DNA from: a virus
Direction: 5' to 3' (one strand)
DNA: 20,331 nucleotides
Virus record (IMG/VR): IMGVR_UViG_3300013372_000240
Span: 1-20,331 of that record
The notes beneath the pieces are model-generated. The model did not search any database, was not told where the DNA came from, and was given only the letters and a program-made list of their open reading frames with translations. Both the position numbers and the translations under genes were made by a program. The stretch's first letter is position 1. The number at the start of each line of letters is the position of its first letter. Positions 3,102 through 18,674 of the stretch are shown piece by piece.

Positions 3102-6100
3102 ATGGCACTAAGTTCACCAGGCGTAGAAGTAACAATCATTGACCAAAGTCAATATTTACCAGCTGCCTCAAATTCAGTCCCCCTAATATTAATAGCAACA
3201 GCAAATAATAAAGCTGATGCCGCTGGTACTGGTACTGCTATTGCAACAATAGCATCAAATGCTAATAAATTATATCAGGTAACAAGTCAGCGTGATTTGA
3301 TTAATTTATACGGTAGTCCATTCTTCTATAAAACAACGAATGGAACAAGTATTCATGGTTACGAATTAAACGAATATGGATTATTGGCTGCGTATTCATT
3401 ATTGGGTACTACCAATCGTGCTTACGTTTTACGTGCTGATATTGATTTAGGAAGTTTAGTAGGTCAGTTATCACGCCCACTTGGTCCACCGGATGATGGT
3501 ACATATTGGTTAGATACAATAAATTCATTATGGGGTATCTATGAATTTAATAGTACCTTAAATAAATTTGTCAATAAAGAACCAATGGTAATAGTTGATA
3601 GTGTTAATATTCTTGACGACATGCCAAGAGACAGAATTGGCAACATCGGTGATTACGCAGTAATTCCAGGACAAACAATTTATGGTCAATTGTACAATAG
3701 CACTTTCTTTTATAAAACAAAAGATAATCAGTGGGTTCCGGTTGGATCTAGAGAATGGAAAATATCAAACCCTACAGTAACTGCTACTCTAACACCACAA
3801 CAATTAAATGTGGGAGACTCATTTACCATTAACGCAGACGGAGACTATCTAATTAGTATTGTTGTTCCTTCTTCTCCAAATAACACAGTTACAGGTATTG
3901 CTAATTTGATTAATAGCAAGGGTGCATCAGATTTGTATGCTACTTCATCTGGTAATATTTTGAAGATTTATTATGGTGAATATGGAATTGAAAAATCAAT
4001 TACATTGAACATTGGTGCTGGTACTGTCTTAGATGCATTAGGTATTGATGCAGGTAGATATTTTAGCCCAGAAGTAGTATTTGGTACAAGCGCCCAAATG
4101 CCATTATGGACAACTAGTCAAGATAATCCTCGTCCAACCGGATCACTTTGGATCAAAACGAGCGCGGCTGGTAATGGTATGGATTTTGCTTTGTCTAAGT
4201 ATTCAGCAAGAACAGCATCATTCAATACAGTAAACGTAGGGAAATATTCTAATGAATTACATGCTACATACGATTTAGATTCCTCTGGTGGAAAATCTAT
4301 TCCTACTGATACGGTGATTGCTTTAGTAGGCACAGGTACTCCTGAGTCAGCAGTAATGTTCTATAGAAGATTGACAACTGGACCTACAGTTGTAACTAGT
4401 TCATTAACAAATCCAACAATAACACAAAATTCTACTTTAAAAGTTGGTGTTTCTTTACCGGGAACAAATGCATCTAGTAACGCATATATTATTTCAATGA
4501 CCGGTACTACCGCATCTAGTTTTGTATTAGATTGGGCGGCTGCTCAAATCCCTTATACAACTGCAATGGTTACATCTGACGGAGCAATTCAGCTAACTCA
4601 TACATTGGGTGGTGAACTTGTAATGAATGATTTAAACGCTGCCGGTCAAAGTAATGGTTTGATTAATCAATTAGGATTTACGCATACTATTACAGTTGGT
4701 GCTAGAAGAGGTAGTTTAGACACATATGCAAATTCATCATTAAATCAAGATGCTACTAGTGGAAGTGGTACTGGTGCTATATTCAGTATCAGAAATTCTA
4801 GAGGTCATTACTATATTGATGGCGCTAACGGTGGAACAGGCTACGTAGCAGGTGATGAAATTACAATTATTGGTAGTAAGTTAGGCGGAACAACTCCAGC
4901 TAATAACTTAAAACTTACTGTAGTTCAAGTTACTTCAGGTGGTATTACATCAGTAGCATTCAAGTCAGGAACTGCATATACACTTTATTTTACAACATTA
5001 TCAAATTGGGTAGATTTAGAGTATACTGCTAACGAAGGTGCACCAAGTGCATTGCCGTTAACTGGCGCTAAGTGGTTCTATAGTACTGGTACAGAAATTG
5101 ATATTATGGTCAAAAAGGGTACAACATGGGTAGGATACAAAACTACAAACTATGATAGTTTAGGAAATCCTACTAACGTGGGTACAAACGCTACTGATCC
5201 AACTGGTATAATTTTACAAACTACAAAACCTTCACAACAGACAGACGGTACTCCATTAGTTTATGGTGATTTGTGGTTAGATGCTAGTGATTTAGAAAAT
5301 TACCCTGCATTAAGTCGCTGGGAAGAAATTGACGGTGTGGATCAATGGCTAGCTATTGACAACACTGACCAAACAAGTAATAATGGTATATTATTTGCTG
5401 ACGCACGTTGGGCAACTAATAATTATACTGACCCGGTAAATGATCCTATCCCAAGTATTAGCAGTCTATCACTGAGCAATTATGTTGATTTAGATTGTCC
5501 TAACCCAGCATTGTATCCACAAGGTATGATATTATTCAATACACGCCGTTCAGGATATAATGTAAAAGAGTTTAGAAGAAGTTACTTTACACAAGCTAAC
5601 TATCCAGGTGCTAGCTTACCAACTCATCCTTATACATGGGTATCAGTAAGTGGATTGAAGGAAGACGGCGCGGCATATATGGGTCGTAAGGCACAACGTA
5701 ACATGGTTGTACAATCATTGAAGGCAGCAATCGGTACTAATATGAGTATCCGTGAAGAAGATTCATTTATGAATCTAATGGCTACCCCGGGATATCCAGA
5801 ACTAATGCCTGATATGGTTACATTAAACAATGACCGTAATAATACTGCATACATCGTCGGTGATACACCGTTGCGTTTAGCAGACCAAGCAACTGATATT
5901 TTAGCATGGGCTAATAACACTATAGGTGCAACAAGTTCAGGTGAAGATGCTATGGTAACACGTGATACATATCTTGGTGTATTCTATCCAAGCGGTATTA
6001 CAACAGACTTAACAGGTGCTTCTGTTGTAGTTCCGGCAAGTCACATGATGTTACGCACATTCTTACGTAATGATACTGTTGCTTATCCTTGGCTAGCGGC

Positions 6101-6620
6101 AGCCGGTGTACGTAGAGGTACAATTGACAATGCTACAAATATTGGATACTTAGATTCAATTACTGGTGAATTCAAAACTGTTAAGAATCGTATGAGTATT
6201 CGTGATGTATTGTACACTAATCAAATCAATCCATTAGCATTCTTCACAGGCGTAGGCTTGTTGAATTATGGTAATAAGAATACATTTGATTCACAAAGTG
6301 CGTTAGACAGAACAAACGTATCACGTTTAGTATGCTACATTCGTGAAAGACTACAGATTGCGGCTCGTCCGTTCGTATTCGAACCTAACGATTCACTAAC
6401 ACGTAGTCAATTGACCGGTGTAGTACAATCATTATTCATTGACCTAGTTGCAAAACGCGGTTTATATGACTATTTGGTTGTTTGTGACGAGAGTAACAAT
6501 ACACCCGCAAGAATTGATAGAAACGAACTATGGGTAGACGTTGCAGTGGAGCCAGTTAAGGCTGCTGAATTCATCTATATTCCGGTACGTATTATGAATA
6601 CTGGCGAGATAAATGGATAA
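3102..6620 (+). CDS. 18: Tail sheath protein, gp18 family, greatly enlarged
   Basis: Contractile tail sheath subunit, polymerising around the tail tube. The N-terminus (ALSSPGVEVTIIDQS) is the typical sheath opening. The C-terminal portion from about residue 870 carries the conserved sheath core: a REEDSFMNLMATPGYPELMPD segment, GVFYPSG (about 957-963), HMMLRTFLRND, AYPWLAAAGVRRG, and the RRxLYDYLV-like strand with the final VEPVKAAEFIYIPVRI strand used for subunit handshakes. At 1,172 residues it is much longer than T4 gp18 (about 659). The extra length lies between about 120 and 830 and includes repeated Trp modules (G-x-YWLD near 133-138, GSLWIK at 347-352, GDLWLD at 722-727), probably surface-exposed beta domains. 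A late-type promoter precedes it and a hairpin follows the stop. The sheath assignment is firm. Confidence 0.93.
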   Translation: MALSSPGVEVTIIDQSQYLPAASNSVPLILIATANNKADAAGTGTAIATIASNANKLYQVTSQRDLINLYGSPFFYKTTNGTSIHGYELNEYGLLAAYSLLGTTNRAYVLRADIDLGSLVGQLSRPLGPPDDGTYWLDTINSLWGIYEFNSTLNKFVNKEPMVIVDSVNILDDMPRDRIGNIGDYAVIPGQTIYGQLYNSTFFYKTKDNQWVPVGSREWKISNPTVTATLTPQQLNVGDSFTINADGDYLISIVVPSSPNNTVTGIANLINSKGASDLYATSSGNILKIYYGEYGIEKSITLNIGAGTVLDALGIDAGRYFSPEVVFGTSAQMPLWTTSQDNPRPTGSLWIKTSAAGNGMDFALSKYSARTASFNTVNVGKYSNELHATYDLDSSGGKSIPTDTVIALVGTGTPESAVMFYRRLTTGPTVVTSSLTNPTITQNSTLKVGVSLPGTNASSNAYIISMTGTTASSFVLDWAAAQIPYTTAMVTSDGAIQLTHTLGGELVMNDLNAAGQSNGLINQLGFTHTITVGARRGSLDTYANSSLNQDATSGSGTGAIFSIRNSRGHYYIDGANGGTGYVAGDEITIIGSKLGGTTPANNLKLTVVQVTSGGITSVAFKSGTAYTLYFTTLSNWVDLEYTANEGAPSALPLTGAKWFYSTGTEIDIMVKKGTTWVGYKTTNYDSLGNPTNVGTNATDPTGIILQTTKPSQQTDGTPLVYGDLWLDASDLENYPALSRWEEIDGVDQWLAIDNTDQTSNNGILFADARWATNNYTDPVNDPIPSISSLSLSNYVDLDCPNPALYPQGMILFNTRRSGYNVKEFRRSYFTQANYPGASLPTHPYTWVSVSGLKEDGAAYMGRKAQRNMVVQSLKAAIGTNMSIREEDSFMNLMATPGYPELMPDMVTLNNDRNNTAYIVGDTPLRLADQATDILAWANNTIGATSSGEDAMVTRDTYLGVFYPSGITTDLTGASVVVPASHMMLRTFLRNDTVAYPWLAAAGVRRGTIDNATNIGYLDSITGEFKTVKNRMSIRDVLYTNQINPLAFFTGVGLLNYGNKNTFDSQSALDRTNVSRLVCYIRERLQIAARPFVFEPNDSLTRSQLTGVVQSLFIDLVAKRGLYDYLVVCDESNNTPARIDRNELWVDVAVEPVKAAEFIYIPVRIMNTGEING

Positions 6621-6681: not shown

Positions 6682-7317
6682 ATGGCAACAGCCTCAAATT
6701 CACTGTTTAATATGACAGTAGGTTCAGATAACACCCCTAGTTCTCAGGGTTTGTTAATGCCTAAATTACAATATCGTTTCAGAGCATTGTTCCTAAATTT
6801 CGGTGTTGGTGGTTCTACACAAGAATTAACAAAACAAGTAATGGACATTCAAAGACCCAACGTGTCATTTGAAGAAGTTACACTAGACATTTATAACAGC
6901 AAAGTATATCTAGCTGGTAAACATGCATGGCAAGAGACACAAATTAACTTGCGTGATGATGCGGCAGGAAACGTCAGTAAACTAGTTGGTCAACAATTAC
7001 AAAAGCAATTTGACTTTGTTGAACAAGCAAGTGCGGCAACAGGACAAGATTATAAATTTCAAATTAATTATGAAATATTAGACGGTGGTAATGGTGTATT
7101 GGTTCCAAACGTTTTAGAAGCATGGGAATTGTATGGCTGCTTTATTAAATCTGCAAACTACAATAACTTAGATTATAAGAGCAATGAACCAGCAACAATT
7201 CAGTTAAGTATTCGTTTTGATAATGCAATACAAAGCCCATTGAGTTCGGGTCTTGGTGTACAAGTTGGTCGTGCATTTGGTGGCGGATCGGTAACTGGTA
7301 TCGGCTCATCAAGATAA
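6682..7317 (+). CDS. 19: Tail tube protein, gp19 family
   Basis: Subunit of the inner tail tube that the sheath surrounds. The 211 residues follow the gp19 pattern: a first strand (LQYRFRALFLNFG, about 29-41), a central VMDIQRPNVSFEEVTLDIYNSKVYLAGKH-type block (about 53-80), a loop, and the closing strands ending with SIRFDNAIQ (about 175-185), followed by a Gly-rich tail. T4 gp19 is about 163 residues, so this form has short terminal extensions. It has its own late-type promoter and a strong SD. The next gene, a second tube-like protein, begins four bases after the stop codon. Order sheath then tube is that of T4. Confidence 0.9.
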   Translation: MATASNSLFNMTVGSDNTPSSQGLLMPKLQYRFRALFLNFGVGGSTQELTKQVMDIQRPNVSFEEVTLDIYNSKVYLAGKHAWQETQINLRDDAAGNVSKLVGQQLQKQFDFVEQASAATGQDYKFQINYEILDGGNGVLVPNVLEAWELYGCFIKSANYNNLDYKSNEPATIQLSIRFDNAIQSPLSSGLGVQVGRAFGGGSVTGIGSSR

Positions 7318-7320
7318 TAA

Positions 7321-8517
7321 ATGGCAAACGGCTTCGTTGAAAATCTATTAACCGACGCCGTAAAGGGATTTTTCGGTAATGATTACTTGCGTGATTACAC
7401 TCACGCAAGTAAAACCTTTCTACCAGACACACAAGCATATTCCCCTAGATTTAAATTTTTATTTCATGTATATTTTGATATAAATGACGGAATCAGTAGC
7501 GCAAATGTTCCAAACATTCCAGAAGATCATAACTATGGTCTAGCAGTAAAAACAGTACAACTTCCTAAATACAGTTTTGATGTACACACTATGAATCAAT
7601 ACAATCGTAAACGTATTGTTCAAACTAAAATAAAATATGATCCAGTTAATATAACAATGCATGACACTAATAGTGGATTGATTACTAAGTTATGGCATGC
7701 GTATTATACATATTATTATAAAGATGGTGTTCAGCCTGACCCATTAAATGCTCAAAAGAAAGCTAGTTTCGTAGGCGCAAGATCCCCTGCAAATAGAAAC
7801 GGCGTGAATAATATTGATATAAACAAACGCAATTTATATCAAAAAGATATATCTAATAGTGACGATTGGGGTTATGTCGGTGAACCTCAAAGTCTAACGC
7901 AAGGCGAAGAATACAAAGTTCCGTTCTTTAGAGCAATAAACATATATGGTTTTAATAATCACAATTTTACATTGTACAGACTGATAAATCCTATAATTGA
8001 AAGTTTCACACATGATACTTACAATTATGCTGAAGGTAGTGGTGTCATGGAAAATACAATGACATTACAATATGAAACTGTACAATATTATACTGGTGCA
8101 GTAGATGGTAAGAAACCAGAAGAGATTGTTAAAGAATTTGGTTCATTAGGGCATTATGACAAAACGGTAAGTCCTATTGCTGCCGCAGGTAGTAATGGTA
8201 GTATTCTTGGTCAAGGTGGATTACTTGATGGTGCCGGTGGAGTAATGGATAAACTTGCTAGCGGTGATTATATTGGTGCTATTAAACAAACAGGACAATT
8301 AACAAAGACATTCGCACAACCCGGTGCAATAGTTAATGCTATTAAGGGTGATGCATTTGGTGCGGCTAGTGATTATTTAAAAGGTACGCCTAATAGGAAT
8401 GTCAATTTTGGCTTCCCATCACCTAGCTCATTAATAAATAATGCACAAACCAGTCTGACACAAGGTATAGGCAAATCAACCGGATACTATCCAAAAGACT
8501 ACACAGGACCAAGATAA
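7321..8517 (+). CDS. Second tail tube-like protein (gp19/gp54/gp48-type candidate)
   Basis: A 398-residue protein whose first part looks like an enlarged tail-tube fold: SPRFKFLFHVYFD (about 41-53), AVKTVQLPKYSFDVHTMNQYN (about 75-95), a KIKYDPVNITMHDT strand pair, an aromatic helix (LWHAYYTYYYKDG) and closing strands around ALQYETVQYYTG-like residues near 250. From about 290 to the end it is Gly/Ala/Ser-rich with hydrophobic stretches, an extension not found in gp19. It begins four bases after gp19 with no strong SD, so translation may depend on gp19. Candidates are a tube-initiating or baseplate tube protein (T4 gp54 is about 320 and gp48 about 364 residues). I cannot tell which from sequence alone. 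Confidence 0.7.
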   Translation: MANGFVENLLTDAVKGFFGNDYLRDYTHASKTFLPDTQAYSPRFKFLFHVYFDINDGISSANVPNIPEDHNYGLAVKTVQLPKYSFDVHTMNQYNRKRIVQTKIKYDPVNITMHDTNSGLITKLWHAYYTYYYKDGVQPDPLNAQKKASFVGARSPANRNGVNNIDINKRNLYQKDISNSDDWGYVGEPQSLTQGEEYKVPFFRAINIYGFNNHNFTLYRLINPIIESFTHDTYNYAEGSGVMENTMTLQYETVQYYTGAVDGKKPEEIVKEFGSLGHYDKTVSPIAAAGSNGSILGQGGLLDGAGGVMDKLASGDYIGAIKQTGQLTKTFAQPGAIVNAIKGDAFGAASDYLKGTPNRNVNFGFPSPSSLINNAQTSLTQGIGKSTGYYPKDYTGPR

Positions 8518-9864: not shown

Positions 9865-10464
9865 ATGAAAAGCCTTCGTCATTACCTAACAGAAAGTGTT
9901 AGAACTTACAATTATACTATCAAAATCGCCGGCGATGTTGATAAAAACTTCTTTGACATGTTCACTTACAATCTAAGTAAATTTGATCCCGTCAAGATTG
10001 AAGATCCAAAGACGACTCCGATTCAAAAAGATCCATATGGATTTCCTGAATTAGAGAATCAGATGATTCATATTATTAAAGCTGAATTCAAATATCCTGC
10101 AACTGAACCAATGATTCAACAAGTTGCACAACAATTAGGATGCAATATAAACAATGTCAGAGTTACGACAACTGATTATAATGATAGCATTAATGCAGAG
10201 AATGACAGATATTCCAATGAAGATAGAAGCGACAAACCGTTATTGACAAATCCAGAATTACTTGATGACGGTAAGCAAGCTAATAAAGATTATGCAAATC
10301 AATACTTGGACAAGGTATTACCTAAGAGACCAAGTATTGATATTCCATATGAGGGCAAGAAAACTCCAACAGCTCCTAACAAGAGTAAAGAAGGAATGCA
10401 AACACAAAGCCCCATGAGTAAAATTAATCTTCCACCAAAACCAGCAACAGGAGCACGTAAATGA
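9865..10464 (+). CDS. Putative capsid-targeted protein (199 aa), conserved in T4-like phages
   Basis: The start MKSLRHYLTES has the length and the [LI]-x-E ending (L8-T9-E10) expected of a T4-type capsid-targeting peptide cleaved by the prohead protease. The following domain has a ferredoxin-like rhythm: YNYTIKIAGDV (about 15-25), a helix, a strand (KIEDPKTTPIQK), and QQVAQQLGCNINNVRVTT (about 86-103). The last 70 residues are polar and Pro/Lys-rich with probable disorder (PKRPSIDIPYEGKK, then PPKPATGARK). A similar arrangement occurs in conserved proteins of aquatic T4-like phages as I recall, but I know of no assigned function. The stop overlaps the start of the next gene (ATGA). Head-internal location is inference. 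Confidence 0.75.
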   Translation: MKSLRHYLTESVRTYNYTIKIAGDVDKNFFDMFTYNLSKFDPVKIEDPKTTPIQKDPYGFPELENQMIHIIKAEFKYPATEPMIQQVAQQLGCNINNVRVTTTDYNDSINAENDRYSNEDRSDKPLLTNPELLDDGKQANKDYANQYLDKVLPKRPSIDIPYEGKKTPTAPNKSKEGMQTQSPMSKINLPPKPATGARK

Positions 10465-10682
10465 TTGACTTTAATTCTAGCCAACTAACATGGATTTTAA
10501 TTGGCGCTTGTAGTATGGGCGGTACAGGGTATTTAACGATGGACAGTAAAATTGCAGAGTTAGATACTAAAGTTGAAGTAAATAGTGCAAAAATGGATGA
10601 TATGAAAACAACGTTTGCTGAACTACAAAAACAACTGACTCGCATGGAAGATAAATTAGATAGAAAACAAGGATTAAAATAA
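10461..10682 (+). CDS. Small membrane-anchored coiled-coil protein (73 aa)
   Basis: One N-terminal hydrophobic segment (LTWILIGACSMGGTGYLTM, about 9-27) is followed by a regular coiled coil (KIAELDTKVEVNSAKMDD, then FAELQKQLTRMEDKL, about 29-68) and a basic end. This is the layout of a signal-anchored protein with a cytoplasmic or periplasmic coil. Candidates are a holin or spanin-like lysis accessory, or a virion membrane protein; the endolysin here has no signal peptide and needs help to cross the membrane. The SD AGGAG (10449-10453) is seven bases before the ATG, and both ends overlap neighbours (ATGA, TAATG). Its function is undetermined. Confidence 0.7.
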   Translation: MIDFNSSQLTWILIGACSMGGTGYLTMDSKIAELDTKVEVNSAKMDDMKTTFAELQKQLTRMEDKLDRKQGLK

Positions 10683-13369
10683 TGAACTTGAGAAGCCTAC
10701 TACAAACAATGTACACCATTAGTGAGGGTGAAACAAAAGAAACTCCTACAGGTCGTGAGCATAAAGGTACTTATGGTTCCAGTCATGGCAAAGAAGATGT
10801 CCGTGACCAATATGGACATAAAGTTGGTAAAATAAATAAAGGTGCGGCAGATAAAAAGAATGATGCTCCTAAAAAGCGTGGACGCCCTACTAAGGCGGCT
10901 AAAGATTCTACTGGCGCAGATATCAAACATGACACCTCTGGTATCCAAGCGATGCTAGGTAAAAAGCCAAACAATGAAGTTGGTAAAAAATCTGTTAAGC
11001 ATAGTTTAAAAGATTGGATCGAAGCATCTGAACAAAAATCACTAAATGAAGATGGTCAGTATGTTACAAAGCCTATCCCACAACAAAATACACAATTACA
11101 ACAAGTAATTGGTCCAGATGGTAGACCGGCATTAAATCAACCTATTCCAACTAGCGCGGCTCTACGTGTTGCTAGTGCATTAAGTTCCGGTGATAGTTCA
11201 CAGGGTATGACGGAAGAAGGTAAAGGTCTATGGGCTAATATACATGCCAAACGTGAACGTATTAAAAATGGTAGCAGTGAACGTATGCGTAAGCCGGGTA
11301 GCAAAGGAGCCCCGACTGCTAGTGCATTGAAAAAATCAGCAACAGAAGGGGAAGAAATCAGTCTGTCTAACCCTGGAAAATTTAGCAATCAAGAACATAA
11401 AGATAATCTGAATCAACGATACGGACAACCCGACTTGAACACATCTCGTATGAATAAACAACATCAGGACTTCTACGATAAAAATCCTAGTTTCAAACAA
11501 AGTGGAAAAGAAACTGTTTCCTTAGGTGACCGTCGTCTTGCTTCAAAAGTTGAGCCAGCAGTGACTGATACAAAAGTAGGACGTATTCCAATGAGTACAC
11601 CTGGTGGTAGTACAGGTCGTGGCGGCGGCACAGGACTTGGTGGTAGAAGACCAGGCGATGATAATAGATTGAATCCATTAAAGTTGGAAGCCGCAGAAAA
11701 GAAAACAATGAGTCGTGCTGCCAAAGGACATGAAAAGTACGGTAAAGAAGGTATGCAAGCATTAGCTAAAGCAGGACGTGATGGTGCTAGTGAAAAGAAA
11801 TTAGATACTATCCGTAACAAGTATGACAAGTATGACAATGAAGTATCAGAAGCAAAAGATTTACCAGGTGATCAAGATAACTTAGATGTTGCACCACCAA
11901 AAGGTAAATTAACTAGTGCTGACTTCAAAGCACTACGTACTAAAAAGAAAGTTAAAGAAAGTTTAAGTTTCAATGAAATGATGGGTGAAACCAATGATGA
12001 AATGCAAGATATGTTGGCTGAATTACAACAAGATATTGAGCATTTCAATACAACAGGACATTGCAGTGATAAACTTCAAGCATTTTTAAACATACACGGT
12101 CATGCTAAAAAGAAAATGACTGATGAAGGTCAGCATACACAGCATTATTTAGATGCTAATAAACCAAGTATAGTAAGACAACATGCTGAAATTGCACAAG
12201 CACCAAAACAGCATACTCCGTGGAAGGCTGATCCGATCAGTGCTGCCAGTAATATGGCTACTGATGTAGCCCAATCAATGGGTAAAAAAACTAGTGGTTT
12301 CTTAAAAAGTTTAAGTCCATTTAGTATGACAGAAAGTAAAAATATGATAGATATTCAATTAGAAAATTGGGAAAAAGAATTAAATTCTTTATTAAATGAA
12401 GGCATTACTGTATCAAGCAGTACTGGTCAACAAGGTAGTCCTGATTCAGTAAGTATCAATGCTACTGATGCAGATGCACAAGAACTATTGTCTATTGTTA
12501 GACAAGCTGGTCTAGGTGTATTTGGTGGTGATAAACCACAAAGCAATTACGGTGCACCTATGCATGACAATCCATCAGGTCACGGAACAGAGCCAGAAAT
12601 GTCTCCTACTGTAGTTGGTGATGATAGTGACATGCTAGCATTGATTAAAAAAATGACTGGCATTAGCATAGGTGGTGAAGAAGGTTCTATGGATGGCGGT
12701 CATGGTAGTGACTACGAAGATGAAGAAGGTTCCGAAGATACAGCACTACAACCAGCTGATAGTGATGAAGAACATGATTCAGGTGAAGAGTCTGAAGAAG
12801 GTGATGAAGAGGAAGTAGATGAAAATCTAGTACCTGTACCAAATCCTAGCGGAGCATCTAGTGCAGATGACGCTAAACGTCTAGGAGGAATGATGCCAAA
12901 ACCAGCTGGATCTAATAGAGATCCTATATCCGAATTAACAGCGGAGTATCCAGGTGGTAGCACACCGCTTCCGGAAGATGAAGTTGAAGAAGGTAATGAA
13001 TTCAGTGGAAATCGTGCTGATGCTATAAAAAACCACCAAGACAATTTTGAAGTTGATGGTAAAAAATACCCAGTTAAAGAAGATGAAATAGAAGAAGGTC
13101 ATGACCATGAAACGTGCAACGAATGCGGGTCAGCAATGTATGAAGGTCACACATGCGGTGACGAACAAGTAGAAGAAGGATATGCTAATGAGACTGGTCA
13201 TGAAGAATTAGCGCAATTAAAAGCACTATTGGGTATGGGAAATGATATGCATAGACCTAAAAATAGTCAAGCTACAGGTAACGTTCAAAAAGTTACAATG
13301 GAAACAAAACTGATGAAACAATCTAGTGATTTATTAGTAGATTTTAGGAAATTAAGCGGAATAAAATAA
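10682..13369 (+). CDS. Large low-complexity virion or core protein with capsid-targeting-like N-terminus
   Basis: Unidentified 895-residue protein, largely disordered, with recognisable patches. The N-terminus (LLQTMYTISE) ends I13-S14-E15, a prohead protease-type site. Further candidate sites are LNE at 121-123 and at 571-573. An AT-hook-like KKRGRP lies at 64-69. A block around 343-370 (SRAAKGHEKYGKEGMQALAK) resembles a basic module found in proteins of aquatic T4-like phages. Residues from about 574 (ITVSSSTGQQG, then a DAQELLSIVRQAGLG segment) form a small ordered domain. There is a very acidic stretch at 677-715 and a Cys cluster C812-x2-C815-x9-C825. Mixed basic and acidic tracts suit a DNA-contacting core or internal head protein, later processed. 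Its position next to gp16 and other targeted proteins agrees, but this is inference. Confidence 0.75.
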   Translation: MNLRSLLQTMYTISEGETKETPTGREHKGTYGSSHGKEDVRDQYGHKVGKINKGAADKKNDAPKKRGRPTKAAKDSTGADIKHDTSGIQAMLGKKPNNEVGKKSVKHSLKDWIEASEQKSLNEDGQYVTKPIPQQNTQLQQVIGPDGRPALNQPIPTSAALRVASALSSGDSSQGMTEEGKGLWANIHAKRERIKNGSSERMRKPGSKGAPTASALKKSATEGEEISLSNPGKFSNQEHKDNLNQRYGQPDLNTSRMNKQHQDFYDKNPSFKQSGKETVSLGDRRLASKVEPAVTDTKVGRIPMSTPGGSTGRGGGTGLGGRRPGDDNRLNPLKLEAAEKKTMSRAAKGHEKYGKEGMQALAKAGRDGASEKKLDTIRNKYDKYDNEVSEAKDLPGDQDNLDVAPPKGKLTSADFKALRTKKKVKESLSFNEMMGETNDEMQDMLAELQQDIEHFNTTGHCSDKLQAFLNIHGHAKKKMTDEGQHTQHYLDANKPSIVRQHAEIAQAPKQHTPWKADPISAASNMATDVAQSMGKKTSGFLKSLSPFSMTESKNMIDIQLENWEKELNSLLNEGITVSSSTGQQGSPDSVSINATDADAQELLSIVRQAGLGVFGGDKPQSNYGAPMHDNPSGHGTEPEMSPTVVGDDSDMLALIKKMTGISIGGEEGSMDGGHGSDYEDEEGSEDTALQPADSDEEHDSGEESEEGDEEEVDENLVPVPNPSGASSADDAKRLGGMMPKPAGSNRDPISELTAEYPGGSTPLPEDEVEEGNEFSGNRADAIKNHQDNFEVDGKKYPVKEDEIEEGHDHETCNECGSAMYEGHTCGDEQVEEGYANETGHEELAQLKALLGMGNDMHRPKNSQATGNVQKVTMETKLMKQSSDLLVDFRKLSGIK

Positions 13370-13464: not shown

Positions 13465-16400
13465 ATGGCACAACAAAATATTGATTTTGGTTCTTTCCCA
13501 AATGATCCGGGGGCGGATGCGATAAGAACCGCTTTCGAAAAAGTACAACAAAATTTTACAGACTTATATACAACTACTATTTCGTCAGGTGTAACACAAG
13601 TTATTACAGGTCCTGGCCTTGGACAAAATAGACAGACCGGTACTATAACGATATCTGCAAACATTCCCAATATTTCGATACAGACAAGTACGAACTTACG
13701 TATTGGAGTAGGGGTAGCATCGGGTAATACTGCTACTATTAGTAGTTGGGCTACACCGTTTGTAATAGATTTATCAAGTAATATAGCAACAGCAAATGCA
13801 ACAATTGGTAATATAACAGTTGCTAATTTAAACGTAACAAATCGTGTCACATCAAGTTTAGTTCCCAGTATAGATGTAACATATAATTTAGGTAGTCCAA
13901 CAAGACGTTGGAAAGATTTGTATCTAAGTGGAAACACAATTGATCTGGGCGGTTCATTAATTTCTGCAACAGGTGGTGTTGTAAGTGTGCCGTCATTGAC
14001 AGCAATAACAGCAATAACTTCACCAAGTGTAATTGCAACTAGCGTGGTGACTCCTACTATTACTATTGGTAATTTAAACATAACCAATAATGGTTACAAT
14101 ATTATAATGCCAGCACTACAAGTTGGTAATACTGTTTTAAATCCTAGTGGTCTTACTGTAAGTGGAAACGTAAATGCAGGTAATGTATCTGCCGGCTTTA
14201 TTCAAGGAGAACTAACTACATCAAGTCAACCGGGTATTACAACTGTTGGTATATTAGAAGGATTAACTGTCACTGGTGACATGACTACTGGTAATATGAT
14301 TATTACTGGTAGTACTACAGTGGACGGTAATGTCTCTGTCACTGGTGCATTTAGTGCTCCTACTATTACCGGTAACGTTATTATCCCAGCCGGCTCATCA
14401 TTACAAGCTCCGGGTTCAACCGGACAGATTACATTTAATGATGGTGGTAACTCTGCGGCGGTTCCCGGATTAACTTTTGATAAGACTAGTAATCTATTAA
14501 GTATTTCAGGTAATGTATCAGGTGGAAACTTAGTATCAACCGGTGCATTAAGTTTAACTAAAGATGCAAACATCGGCGGTAACGTTAAATCAGCTAATTT
14601 ATTAACAGGTCGTGTTGAAGCGACCAGTATCATATCATCCGGTGGTAGTAATGTTGTATTAGATCCTGCAGGTACAGTAAGTGCTATTGGTAATATTAGT
14701 GGTGGCAATATATCAACCACCGGAACAGTTTCAGCTAACGTAATAGGTGTCACTACATTAAATGCTAGTGGTAATGCAACTATTACAGGTAATGCAACGG
14801 TAGGCAATATATCAACCACCGGAACAGCTAGTGTTGGATTACTATCTAGCGGTAATGCAACTGTCACCGGTAATATATCAGCTGGTAATTTGTCATCTGA
14901 TGGATTTGCTAGTATTGGCGGAACAATAACTGCTGGTAATTTATCAACTGGTGGATTTGCTAGTGTTGGTAGTTTATTAACTAGCGGTACTGCTAACGTT
15001 GGATTATTAGTATCTACCGGTGGTGCCAATATAACAGGTACTGTTACAGCAGGGGCAATCAGTACTGGTAATTTATCTGCGGCTAATCTTACTACCGATG
15101 GCAATTTAACTGCTGCCAATGTTAGTGTTGGGCTTGGTACTATTGCCGCAGGAAATATTAATACAACCGGTAGACATACTACAAACGAACTTGTTGTTAG
15201 TACTAATGCTAATATTCAAGGTACACATCGTGCATTGATAGGATTTACTACAGGGACTCATACTGCTGGTAATTTCTTTACATCAGGTGAATCAAATGTT
15301 GGTAGTCACAAAGCAGGTAGTAGTATTACTACCGGATTACATACTGCAAGCATATTACAAATTGATACTAATGCAACAATCACTGGTAACGGTAGTCTTG
15401 GTAATGCAAGTATAGTAGGATTATTAACCAGTCTTAATGCAAATATTACCGGAACACACTCTGCAACTACTACAGTAACTAGAGGTACTCATACCGCAAA
15501 TACATTAACGGTTAACACAAATGCTACCATCACCGGTAATAGTAGTCACGGTAATATAAACGTTCTTGGGTTACATACTACCGTAGACGCAAACGTAACC
15601 GGATTACATAAAGCCGCAACAAGCGAAACAGTAGGTACACATACTGCACGTGATTTAAAAATTAACGCTGATGCTGAAATTACTGGTAATAGTACTCACG
15701 GTAATGCAAGTGTCATAGGTACATTAACTACTAATGATGCCAATGTTACGGGAACTCACTCCTCAACTACTACTATAACTAGAGGTACGCATACCGCAAA
15801 TACATTAAGTATTAATTTAAATGCATCAGTGGCCGGCACACACACTGTAGGGACTGCAGGTGCTAATGTTGTAATGACTGGCGGTAATTTAACAATGACT
15901 GGCAGACATACTACTACCAATGCAAACGTAACCGGCATACATTTTGTAGGTGATAGTTCTAGTAACGTTGTAATGACTGGTGGTAATTTAACAATGACCG
16001 GTCGACATACTACTAGTAATGCTAACGTCACTGGTACACATTATGTAGGTAATTCTACTGCTTATACTAGTATGAGTGCAGGTAATCTTAATATGACCGG
16101 TACACACACAGCTGGTTATATTGTTATTGACAATGATAGTGAAACTAAAGGCAAACATAAGGCATTAAACTTGCAAGTTACAAATAATGCTAACTTTGAT
16201 GCAAGTATGTTTGTTACAAATGATGCTAACGTTGGTAGTATGAAAGTCAGAGGAGATCATACTGTAAACGGTAATGTTATTTCAGATAAATTTAGCGGTA
16301 ACACTGCGACATTTGGTAGTACACCCGGGGCTGCCGGAACTAGTTTAACAGTTAACGGTGTATTGTCATTGCAAGGTAATGCAAGCATTGGTAATATTAC

Positions 16401-18054
16401 TGCTATTAATAGTGTTACTGGTGGTATTATTTCTCTTACTGGAAATGCAACCGGTACTGCACTAGTAGCGGCTGGATTAGTACGTGTGGGCGGAAAACAT
16501 TCAGTAACACAAGAAATTACAGTCGGGGTATCAGTCTCAGTATCACAAGCTACTGCAGCCGGAGGTATAATAACATTAACATTCGCAGACCAAGGTATTG
16601 CTCCTTTCTATGTTGGACAAAAAATAGTATTAAAGAGTTTTGTACCAATCGGATATAATTTAGAATATACTGTACTAACTTGTAACACAACTACAGTAAC
16701 AATGGCAGGAACAAATGGTACTATTACAACACTGGGCACGGTAGAATCAAGCGGTAATGGTTTAGTAGTTAGTGGTAATCTTGTTGGTGGCAGTATGATT
16801 CTTGCCGGTAGCCACAATGTTAGTGGTAAAATCACTGGTCAAAATGGATTGGATGTAACGTCCGGGGTAGCTAATTTCCAAGGTGGATTAAAATCATTAG
16901 ATGGTACATTTACAGGTAAAGTAGACATTAACGGGAATACATCACTGTATGCTAACGGTGATGTTGCTGGTAAAATATTTACTGCAACATTGTTTACTGG
17001 TAATGGTTCAAGTATAACTAATTTGAAGGGGGTAAATATTGATAATAGCAGTATTGATGCTACTCTTAAATTAACTAACTTAGCAACTGCTGTTTCTACA
17101 TTAAGTGTTGCAAGTGCTACTAGTTCAGGTAATATAACAACAGTTAACGGGTTACCTTCAGGTGTATATACTAATATTACTGGTGTCGGAACATTAGGTA
17201 GTTTAACATTGGGTGGTGCATTTAGCAGTAATAGTACTGTTACTGCTACTAGCTTTAGTGGTGATGGTGCAAGTTTATCTAACGTAGTTGCAAAAAGTGT
17301 CGCAGCCGCAAATATTACCGGACAATCTGGTATGTGGAAATCATCACTTCGCCCAGGCGCAACACGATTATATCGTTCCGAGGATAATAGCAATTATAAT
17401 TTACAAAATTATTGGACAGGTACACATTGGTTCTTGCGTGGATATCAAGGTGATGTAGATGCTACATCAACTACAACTATACATGCTGAGGTGAGAGTAG
17501 GTTATGCTGACAGTGCAGGTAGTGCGGGTAGTGCGGGTAGTGTACCGTGGACTGGTGTGACAGGTAAACCTACTTCTTTAAGTTCATTTACGAATGAGCC
17601 AGGATATTTAACAACACAGTATACTCCACCACAAGCAATTGGCACCGGTGCTAGTGTTCAATTTAGTTCTTTGGGCATTGGTACCGCACCCGTGTCAGCC
17701 GGACAAATTCATGCTACTAACAATATTACTGCGTATTATTCTGATGACAGATTAAAAACTAAACTTGGTAATATTGAAAATGCACTAGATAAGATTGATG
17801 AACTAAGTGGTTTCTATTATGAAGAAAATGAATTAGCAGAGTCATTAGGGTATACTAAACATCGTCAAGTTGGTGTGTCCGCACAACAAGTTCAAACACA
17901 ACTTCCTGATTGTGACATAGTTGTACCCGCACCAATTGACAATAAATACTGGACTGTACATTATGAAAGATTAATTCCATTATTAATTGAAGGTATCAAA
18001 GAACTACGTGCAGAAGTTAAAGAAATAAAAAATACATTGGAAGGTAAAAAATGA
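13465..18054 (+). CDS. Repeat-built tail fibre with C-terminal S74 intramolecular chaperone
   Basis: A 1,529-residue adhesin likely to form a trimeric fibre for host recognition. The N-terminus (FPNDPGADAIRTAFEKVQQN, about 11-30) is a T4-like attachment motif, followed by an LGSPTRRWKDLYLSGNTIDL element (about 141-160). Residues from about 250 to 950 are built from 11-residue beta repeats; from 569 to 932 many units carry G-x-H. A Thr/Gly/Ala-rich shaft follows, with a GSAGSAGS stretch and a WTGVTGKP motif near the end. The C-terminus has the Peptidase_S74 signature SDDRLKT, with cleavage expected between Y1425 and S1426, which would release a 104-residue chaperone ending in a coiled coil. 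Its own late promoter and an upstream terminator isolate the gene. The last four bases overlap the endolysin start. Fibre identity is firm; receptor unknown. Confidence 0.92.
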   Translation: MAQQNIDFGSFPNDPGADAIRTAFEKVQQNFTDLYTTTISSGVTQVITGPGLGQNRQTGTITISANIPNISIQTSTNLRIGVGVASGNTATISSWATPFVIDLSSNIATANATIGNITVANLNVTNRVTSSLVPSIDVTYNLGSPTRRWKDLYLSGNTIDLGGSLISATGGVVSVPSLTAITAITSPSVIATSVVTPTITIGNLNITNNGYNIIMPALQVGNTVLNPSGLTVSGNVNAGNVSAGFIQGELTTSSQPGITTVGILEGLTVTGDMTTGNMIITGSTTVDGNVSVTGAFSAPTITGNVIIPAGSSLQAPGSTGQITFNDGGNSAAVPGLTFDKTSNLLSISGNVSGGNLVSTGALSLTKDANIGGNVKSANLLTGRVEATSIISSGGSNVVLDPAGTVSAIGNISGGNISTTGTVSANVIGVTTLNASGNATITGNATVGNISTTGTASVGLLSSGNATVTGNISAGNLSSDGFASIGGTITAGNLSTGGFASVGSLLTSGTANVGLLVSTGGANITGTVTAGAISTGNLSAANLTTDGNLTAANVSVGLGTIAAGNINTTGRHTTNELVVSTNANIQGTHRALIGFTTGTHTAGNFFTSGESNVGSHKAGSSITTGLHTASILQIDTNATITGNGSLGNASIVGLLTSLNANITGTHSATTTVTRGTHTANTLTVNTNATITGNSSHGNINVLGLHTTVDANVTGLHKAATSETVGTHTARDLKINADAEITGNSTHGNASVIGTLTTNDANVTGTHSSTTTITRGTHTANTLSINLNASVAGTHTVGTAGANVVMTGGNLTMTGRHTTTNANVTGIHFVGDSSSNVVMTGGNLTMTGRHTTSNANVTGTHYVGNSTAYTSMSAGNLNMTGTHTAGYIVIDNDSETKGKHKALNLQVTNNANFDASMFVTNDANVGSMKVRGDHTVNGNVISDKFSGNTATFGSTPGAAGTSLTVNGVLSLQGNASIGNITAINSVTGGIISLTGNATGTALVAAGLVRVGGKHSVTQEITVGVSVSVSQATAAGGIITLTFADQGIAPFYVGQKIVLKSFVPIGYNLEYTVLTCNTTTVTMAGTNGTITTLGTVESSGNGLVVSGNLVGGSMILAGSHNVSGKITGQNGLDVTSGVANFQGGLKSLDGTFTGKVDINGNTSLYANGDVAGKIFTATLFTGNGSSITNLKGVNIDNSSIDATLKLTNLATAVSTLSVASATSSGNITTVNGLPSGVYTNITGVGTLGSLTLGGAFSSNSTVTATSFSGDGASLSNVVAKSVAAANITGQSGMWKSSLRPGATRLYRSEDNSNYNLQNYWTGTHWFLRGYQGDVDATSTTTIHAEVRVGYADSAGSAGSAGSVPWTGVTGKPTSLSSFTNEPGYLTTQYTPPQAIGTGASVQFSSLGIGTAPVSAGQIHATNNITAYYSDDRLKTKLGNIENALDKIDELSGFYYEENELAESLGYTKHRQVGVSAQQVQTQLPDCDIVVPAPIDNKYWTVHYERLIPLLIEGIKELRAEVKEIKNTLEGKK
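15367..15816 (+). repeat. Three tandem 150-bp repeats in the fibre gene
   Basis: Units start at 15367, 15517 and 15667, each encoding 50 residues (one six-residue spacer plus four eleven-residue units), residues 635-784. Near-identical DNA occurs at equal places in the first and third unit, for example the stretches at 15481 and 15781, which differ at one base over about 28. A partial fourth spacer begins at 15817. Confidence 0.9.
15865..16161 (+). repeat. Three tandem 99-bp repeats in the fibre gene
   Basis: Starts at 15865, 15964 and 16063 are exactly 99 bases apart, encoding 33 residues (three eleven-residue units). The first two are close copies (both read NVVMTGGNLTMTGRHTT and on); the third is diverged (SAGNLNMTGTHTAG). 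Confidence 0.85.
17512..17538 (+). repeat. Nine-base microrepeat, three copies, in the fibre gene
   Basis: AGTGCAGGT followed by two copies of AGTGCGGGT, encoding a Ser-Ala-Gly triplet repeat before the WTGVTGKP motif. The copies keep the reading frame and may form a flexible hinge. Confidence 0.8.
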
Positions 18055-18674
18055 TAACAGTAGAATTATTACAAAAATTGTGCCCAAAGACTAAAAAGTC
18101 AGTACTTGAATTATATGCAATACCATTGCATGAGGTAGCAGAATATTATGATATGTATGATAACATGCATCGTGCGGCTGCATTCGTTGCACAAACTGCA
18201 CATGAGTCAGGTGGTTTTAATTTCGTTAAAGAAAATTTAAACTACAGTGCTAAGGGTTTGATGGGTACTTTCAAAAAATATTTCCCCACAGAAGAATTCG
18301 CAAAACAATATGAACGTAAGCCTGAAAAAATTGCTAATCGTGTATATGCCAATCGTATGAGTAACGGTGATGAGGCCTCAGGTGATGGTTATCGTTTCTG
18401 TGGACGAGGGTTAATACAACTAACCGGTCGTGCTAATTATACTAAATTTGCAGAAGATCTGGGTATCAGTATTGAGGAAACAGTCGAATATCTAGAAACT
18501 CCCGCAGGTGCAGTATCTAGTGCAGGTTGGTTCTGGGATAATAACAATTTAAATAGCATCTGCGATAAAGATGATTTTGTTTTGTTAACTAAACGCATTA
18601 ACGGCGGTACAATTGGTTTAGAAGATAGAAAACATCATTACCATATAGCGTTAGATTTACTAGAAGGACATTAA
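18051..18674 (+). CDS. Endolysin, glycoside hydrolase family 19
   Basis: Peptidoglycan-degrading lysis enzyme (chitinase-like muramidase) acting in the periplasm at the end of infection. Diagnostic GH19 elements: TAHESGGF with the catalytic acid E52, a second candidate Glu at 61, FCGRGLIQLTGRANY (117-131), a GWFWDNNNL segment (159-167) and INGGTIGLEDR (183-193). Length 207 is that of single-domain phage endolysins. No signal peptide or transmembrane anchor is present, so export depends on a holin not identified with certainty here (the 73-residue protein at 10461 is one candidate). The SD-like GGAAGG (18039-18044) lies within the fibre gene and the start overlaps the fibre stop (ATGA), so fibre and lysis enzyme share a transcript. 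Confidence 0.9.
   Translation: MITVELLQKLCPKTKKSVLELYAIPLHEVAEYYDMYDNMHRAAAFVAQTAHESGGFNFVKENLNYSAKGLMGTFKKYFPTEEFAKQYERKPEKIANRVYANRMSNGDEASGDGYRFCGRGLIQLTGRANYTKFAEDLGISIEETVEYLETPAGAVSSAGWFWDNNNLNSICDKDDFVLLTKRINGGTIGLEDRKHHYHIALDLLEGH

Follow-up and report, generated by a model that had tools for sequence, protein, structure and literature searches.

What could a tail fibre gain from a shaft in which histidine follows glycine at the same short distance again and again? This is the question raised by the locus described here. The source phage is known solely through environmental DNA, and the stretch analysed (the window, 20,331 nucleotides) is a 20.3-kb virus record from IMG/VR.

Where does the fibre gene lie, and what surrounds it?

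The window holds a contractile-tail module made up of a head-tail adaptor, a sheath, two tail-tube proteins, an 895-aa protein, the fibre, and an endolysin. The sheath (3102-6620) is very long at 1172 aa, and its best phage matches are to large phages, for example Sinorhizobium Phosso, Agrobacterium Atu_ph07, and Pseudomonas PA5oct. Two adjoining genes (6682-7317 and 7321-8517) each match tail-tube PHROG 4542, and a 199-aa protein (9865-10464) resembles the mL44 endonuclease (RNase III-like) domain at a score below threshold (20.9 bits, cutoff 27). PHROG matches to the 895-aa protein upstream of the fibre (10682-13369) span merely 40-57 residues; the gene in its place encodes 803 aa in the related locus L003, 755 in L015, and 878 in L030. 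Directly downstream of the endolysin, as seen in L001:11508-13682, lies a 724-aa protein with two Ig-like He_PIG stretches, possibly a further surface adhesin.

The features needed for the argument are as follows.

13465..18054 (+): tail-fibre gene, 1529 aa, containing the His lattice (open reading frame; PHROG tail-fibre/baseplate matches in the C-terminal third; Pfam S74)
13465..14034 (+): residues 1-190, the N-terminal domain by which the family is recognised (IMG/VR relatives)
14488..15168 (+): residues 342-568 of the shaft, free of His, with a period of 11/17 and mostly aliphatic residues at position 3 after Gly
15169..16260 (+): His lattice, residues 569-932, with 20 G-x-H and 2 G-N-S-[ST]-H units
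15334..15783 (+): super-repeat of 50 residues (17+11+11+11), three copies, residues 624-773
15547..15549 (+): His695, position 5 of GNSSH
15697..15699 (+): His745, position 5 of GNSTH
15864..16061 (+): 33-residue (99-nt) repeat, two copies, residues 801-866, with two G-x-H 11 apart in each
16492..16500 (+): isolated distal-shaft G-x-H, G1010-K-H1012; the aligned residues of L009 are GNH
16807..16815 (+): isolated distal-shaft G-x-H, G1115-S-H1117; the aligned residues of L009 are again GNH
17740..17910 (+): S74 intramolecular chaperone core, residues 1426-1482 (PF13884, 33.9 bits, cutoff 22)
18051..18674 (+): endolysin (chitinase-like), overlapping the end of the fibre gene

How regular is the placement of histidine?

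The original prediction drew attention to 15169-16260, which indeed corresponds to residues 569-932 of the open reading frame at 13465-18054. This segment holds 22 of the 29 His of a protein that is, as a whole, rich in Thr, Ser, and Asn. G-x-H occurs 20 times in it, against a mean of 2.65 and a maximum of 9 in composition shuffles (n=5000), and a mean of 2.9 and a maximum of 10 when His is placed randomly among non-Gly positions (20000 trials). The strong excess of His at position three was therefore rightly seen, but “more than 20” was slightly too many: the count is 20, and the two other lattice His (695 and 745) stand at position 5, in fifth place when counted from Gly, as GNSSH and GNSTH. 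With these two counted, each of the 22 lattice His falls at position 3 or 5 of a stretch led by Gly; under the null, the mean number is 5.3 and the maximum 14 (20000 trials).

Pairs of His within residues 569-932 are in excess at a lag of 11 (8 observed vs 1.3 expected) and of 50 (10 observed vs 1.1 expected). The successive spacings are 17, 11, 16, 11, 39, 11, 19, 9, 11, 11, 19, 20, 11, 17, 22, 11, 22, 11, 22, 17, and 34, the commonest being 11, 17, and 22. With spacings this mixed, and with residues 801-866 built as a 33-residue (99-nt) repeat, the segment does not divide almost without remainder into 11-residue units, as had been proposed. A 50-residue super-repeat, also proposed, is clear at residues 624-773, where it reads 17+11+11+11, but does not hold for the 33-residue repeat of residues 801-866. 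Its copies are residues 624-673, 674-723, and 724-773, the first being 54 and 60% identical to the next two. At the DNA level, 186-nt copies of the super-repeat region are 62-76% identical, and the two 99-nt copies in the window are 81-85% alike. The 11-residue period is not peculiar to the lattice; it is also found, without His, in residues 1-568.

Which residue does histidine replace?

An 11/17 Gly-punctuated shaft is common to residues 1-568 and to many N-terminal relatives. Two residues after Gly, 51 of the 81 places in residues 1-568 are aliphatic and not one is His (0/81), whereas in residues 569-932 the same place is aliphatic in 13 of 44 and His in 20 of 44. The residue Z in G-x-Z-[ST] behaves likewise, being aliphatic in 32/38 cases in residues 1-568 and His in 13/25 in residues 569-932. 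Positions 2 and 4 after Gly are mostly polar, position 3 is mostly apolar, and position 5 mostly small or apolar, which points to the in/out alternation of a strand.

Excess identity is found at lags of 11, 22, 28, 33, 39, 50, 55, and 61 in the lattice, 11 and 17 in the relative L025, and 28 and 56 in L009 (all as naive z-scores, with many lags tested). These lie near multiples of 5.5, which suggests a strand-plus-turn quantum of about 5.5 residues. Because aliphatic residues predominate at this position elsewhere in the protein and across the family, the lattice His would face inward, and it is likely, on the sequences compared, that they took over a core-facing aliphatic position.

Which relatives carry the lattice?

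A search with the N-terminal domain kept 80 IMG/VR loci, and the fibre could be read by a motif-based script in a subset of 54 entries, the same virus being repeated among them. Lattice fibres are encoded by the window virus (L001, L002, and the window itself), L003, L009/L015, and L006/L030; in L013, G-x-H units start where its contig ends. Over residues 1-190, identity to the window fibre is 97% in L003 and 48-59% in L006 and L009. In about 27 further long N-terminal relatives, the shaft is Gly-punctuated in the same manner, carries 0-3 G-x-H, and is mostly aliphatic where the lattice has His.

The fibre of L009, with 23 G-x-H, is homologous to that of the window from end to end and 38% identical over most of its length (53% in the S74 end). 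That of L006 has 30 G-x-H, including runs of GTHTM 11-mers. Near-identical GTHTM(A/G)xGVTT 11-mers stand in runs in L006:1-2325 (- strand), where some units have Gln in the place of His (GTQVVGGSTPQAG); these runs and Gln units suggest a recent expansion of units and a Gln variant of the putative ring. Both in L006 and in L009, Gln, Thr, or Ser also occupy places equivalent to those of lattice His.

A C-terminal Peptidase_S74 domain is present in the window fibre (PF13884, as listed above) and in L009. S74 is thus found in both complete lattice fibres, and it was not seen in 25 complete relatives (by motif scan, four being checked by Pfam), the majority of which have another C-terminus, of the form ...WY.... 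This C-terminal swap (S74 vs ...WY...) accompanies the His lattice.

Among the known systems nearest to the lattice fibre are these relatives. L014, L016, L025, L031, L041, and others share with it the homology of the N-terminal domain and the kind of shaft, but they have 0-3 G-x-H, a position 3 that is mostly aliphatic, and a C-terminus without S74. The scaffold is ordinary, and the His lattice is the new feature, for which the sequence evidence is solid; any function given to it is a candidate only.

Does the lattice belong to a known family?

As had been advised in the original prediction, we looked for a named repeat family, and residues 569-932 match none in Pfam, PHROGs, or PDB sequences. 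The one exception over the lattice is the tail end of a PHROG tail-fibre match that starts at residue 889, which is as far back as PHROG matches to the fibre extend; the tail-fibre and baseplate families concerned lie in its distal third. Faint similarity to bactofilin and YdcK solenoid repeats falls below the Pfam cutoff. A relation to T4-like distal long tail fibres beyond S74 was considered and rejected: the phage matches listed (40) cover solely residues 1365-1529, and none covers the lattice.

At the sensitivity used, pattern scans of viral contigs gave no further lattice fibres beyond L006 and L009, the other matches being unrelated stretches. A pattern scan of bacterial genomes gave four matches, none of them such a fibre at that sensitivity, and no confirmed relative of the N-terminal domain was found in bacterial genomes. 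In 50,697 phage records, tblastn found no match to the lattice. A single-His 11/17 fibre lattice was not found described in the literature searched, many subscription papers being outside its reach.

What might the lattice build?

The lattice, its distribution in the family, the replacement of aliphatic residues by His, and its retention can all be read directly from the sequences. What they would build is put forward tentatively, as an account that we judge a shade short of evenly balanced: the shaft of a homotrimeric S74 fibre in which inward-facing rings of His tie the chains together and act as metal or polar register layers.

S74 is an intramolecular chaperone of trimeric fibres and spikes, and it is for this reason that we infer a trimer for the window fibre. 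The segment would be part of its shaft, a succession of short beta strands that are about 5.5 residues long and end in a Gly turn. Over some 65 such strands, the core-facing residue (Val, Ile, Leu, or Ala) would be exchanged for His on about every third strand. Given the three-fold symmetry of a trimer, each His would meet its two copies, so that some 22 rings of three His would line the axis. The most likely job of such rings would be to tie the three chains together. Rings of three His were already part of the original prediction, and the sequence offers what they would require: S74 makes a trimer likely, and the His stand at a mostly aliphatic, probably core-facing position. A place for the lattice in the T4 G-x-H-x-H type of iron site is not supported.

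Would the rings hold metal?

The rings could coordinate transition-metal ions in either of two ways: each chain gives one His and water or an anion completes the site, or two rings 11 residues apart hold one ion between them. The zinc site of the insulin hexamer offers a parallel for the former, with one His per chain on a three-fold axis and a metal that has an outside ligand. Metal coordination is speculative and the weakest step of the account. That some 20 three-fold metal sites of the single-His kind, a type distinct from the H-x-H iron site, stand in a column seems to us unlikely.

It is useful to set the lattice beside the known phage sites. The needle of T4 gp37 (PDB 2XGF) has seven iron ions on the trimer axis at H-x-H sites, mostly G-x-H-x-H; six of them read GxH[STG]H, at spacings of 14, 37, 14, 9, and 9. 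His929 and His931 are essential there, as alanine at either abolishes plaque formation (PMC6957217), which makes gp37 a fitting comparison. The fibre of the window is like gp37 in being a tail-fibre trimer (as inferred here), in having a G-x-H-[ST] core at most sites, and in its consecutive His levels (PMC6957217). However, gp37 uses two His per chain per site, whereas the lattice has one His per level, at about 20 levels, mostly 11/17 apart and in mid-shaft. H-x-H occurs 0 times in the fibres of the window, L003, L006, and L009, that is, in every lattice fibre, and the T4 spacings are not 11. The lattice is thus not a member of the T4 H-x-H type, though it may work in a similar way.

Buried H-x-H iron on the three-fold axis of a trimer is also described for the R1/R2 pyocin fibre, P2 gpV, and phi92 spikes (PMC6116203). 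The pyocin shaft differs in having an H-x-H pair and a single iron site, and PMC6116203 describes no repeat lattice. In the stem of the phage phi11 RBP, His42 and His50 of each chain hold iron; here two separate His per chain, outside any H-x-H, can build one axial iron site (PMC4901313), but the stem is a helical bundle with one site. The tail fibre of Alteromonas phage R22Y, with six predicted H-x-H, resembles the lattice in that His sites are repeated at regular spacing in a phage fibre (PMC11705849). It differs in that its H-x-H come every 22 residues with no G-x-H context; it is a prediction only, and no sequence relation was seen. We considered R22Y as a relative on the ground that 22 = 2 x 11, and rejected it as a repeat of another kind.

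The cited solved phage His-metal sites use two His per chain, and by this analogy a lattice with one per level would argue against metal rings. This is also what speaks for the foremost alternative, namely that the His rings are metal-free and make the core polar, hydrated, or protonatable, so that it sets the register of strands or gives a response to pH. It is favoured further by the two units in which His has moved to position 5, and by the many equivalent units of L006 and L009 with Gln, Thr, or Ser, which disfavour a strict metal site and favour a looser polar core. However, His is strongly preferred over Asn, Gln, and Ser (20 of 44 position-3 residues), and a polar layer needs no such bias. 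On balance we regard a metal-free core, as an explanation of its own, as a serious contender that is still not likely; rings that serve as polar, protonatable register layers are, within our own account, the less specific alternative to metal.

Do the His point inward, and into a trimer?

The structure models leave room for other orientations. An AF2 monomer model of residues 569-932 with four relative rows has a mean pLDDT of 36.5, and one of residues 342-690 with 15 relatives a mean of 55.2, both of low confidence; the latter is near 70 in its His-free part alone and mostly below 50 in the His part. With models this poor, the His could also point outward, binding host surface glycans or anions or being merely tolerated, in a protein whose richness in Thr, Ser, and Asn would suit such a surface. 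This we hold to be distinctly unlikely, as the position is mostly aliphatic elsewhere in the protein and in its relatives, with the polar positions 2 and 4 on either side of it.

Foldseek of the 342-690 model gave weak PDB matches to single-chain beta solenoids or parallel beta-helix proteins (best E 0.097), and in BFVD it gave other phage fibre-like proteins; the His geometry was not usable. If the solenoid matches were right, the His would line up as a ladder within or alongside a single chain and would form no three-fold rings, and the faint bactofilin and YdcK similarity below the Pfam cutoff would agree with this. We give these matches low weight and think a single-chain solenoid very unlikely. 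Intertwined chains are beyond what modelling of a monomer can show, and the fibres on which S74 chaperones act are trimeric. Lags of 2, 3, 5, 7, and 9 strands, like those of 11, 17, 22, 28, 39, and 50 residues, misfit any one coil size. Repeats of 2, 3, 5, and 7 strands would be better suited to the intertwined chains of the trimer that we favour than to a single-chain coil of fixed size.

Has the lattice been kept?

The fibres of the window and L003 are identical at 804 of 870 residues, and all of the comparable lattice His are kept (19/19), which at about 7% divergence is not significant alone. dN/dS between the two is 0.153 in the lattice and 0.244 in the His-free shaft. Among units of the window lattice, pair identity of His codons is 0.605 vs 0.600 by chance, and that of Gly codons (20 units) is 0.28 vs 0.46 by chance, that is, more mixed. 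Such mixing indicates that the lattice was kept, or built, via many synonymous changes and not by recent copying, and on this ground we rejected recent tandem duplication as the origin of the window lattice.

That the lattice is a neutral by-product of the tandem duplication of one His-bearing unit is highly improbable, for although L006 has near-identical GTHTM 11-mers in a row and the two 99-nt copies of the window are 81-85% alike, there is little codon identity between units in which Gly and His are nonetheless kept, copies spaced 150 nt apart are merely 62-76% identical in DNA, dN/dS is 0.153, and the lattice is kept in a fibre of 38% identity (L009).

What would the lattice mean for phage fibres?

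Should the rings exist, they would be relevant to how three chains are held in register in long fibres, and they would widen the range of phage axial metal sites, now a few H-x-H sites, to include an extended lattice of single His. The His-free homologues provide natural controls for it. A column of metal sites, if true, would run through about 300 angstrom of shaft, as inferred from a rise of 4.7 angstrom per strand layer, and a fibre wired with metal in this way could load each virion with ions on the order of a hundred, given six fibres. It has been claimed that phage tails hold relevant amounts of metal in natural waters (PMC11705849), and the rings, if they exist, would bear on that claim. 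Were they free of metal, the shaft would be a rare beta core with buried His.
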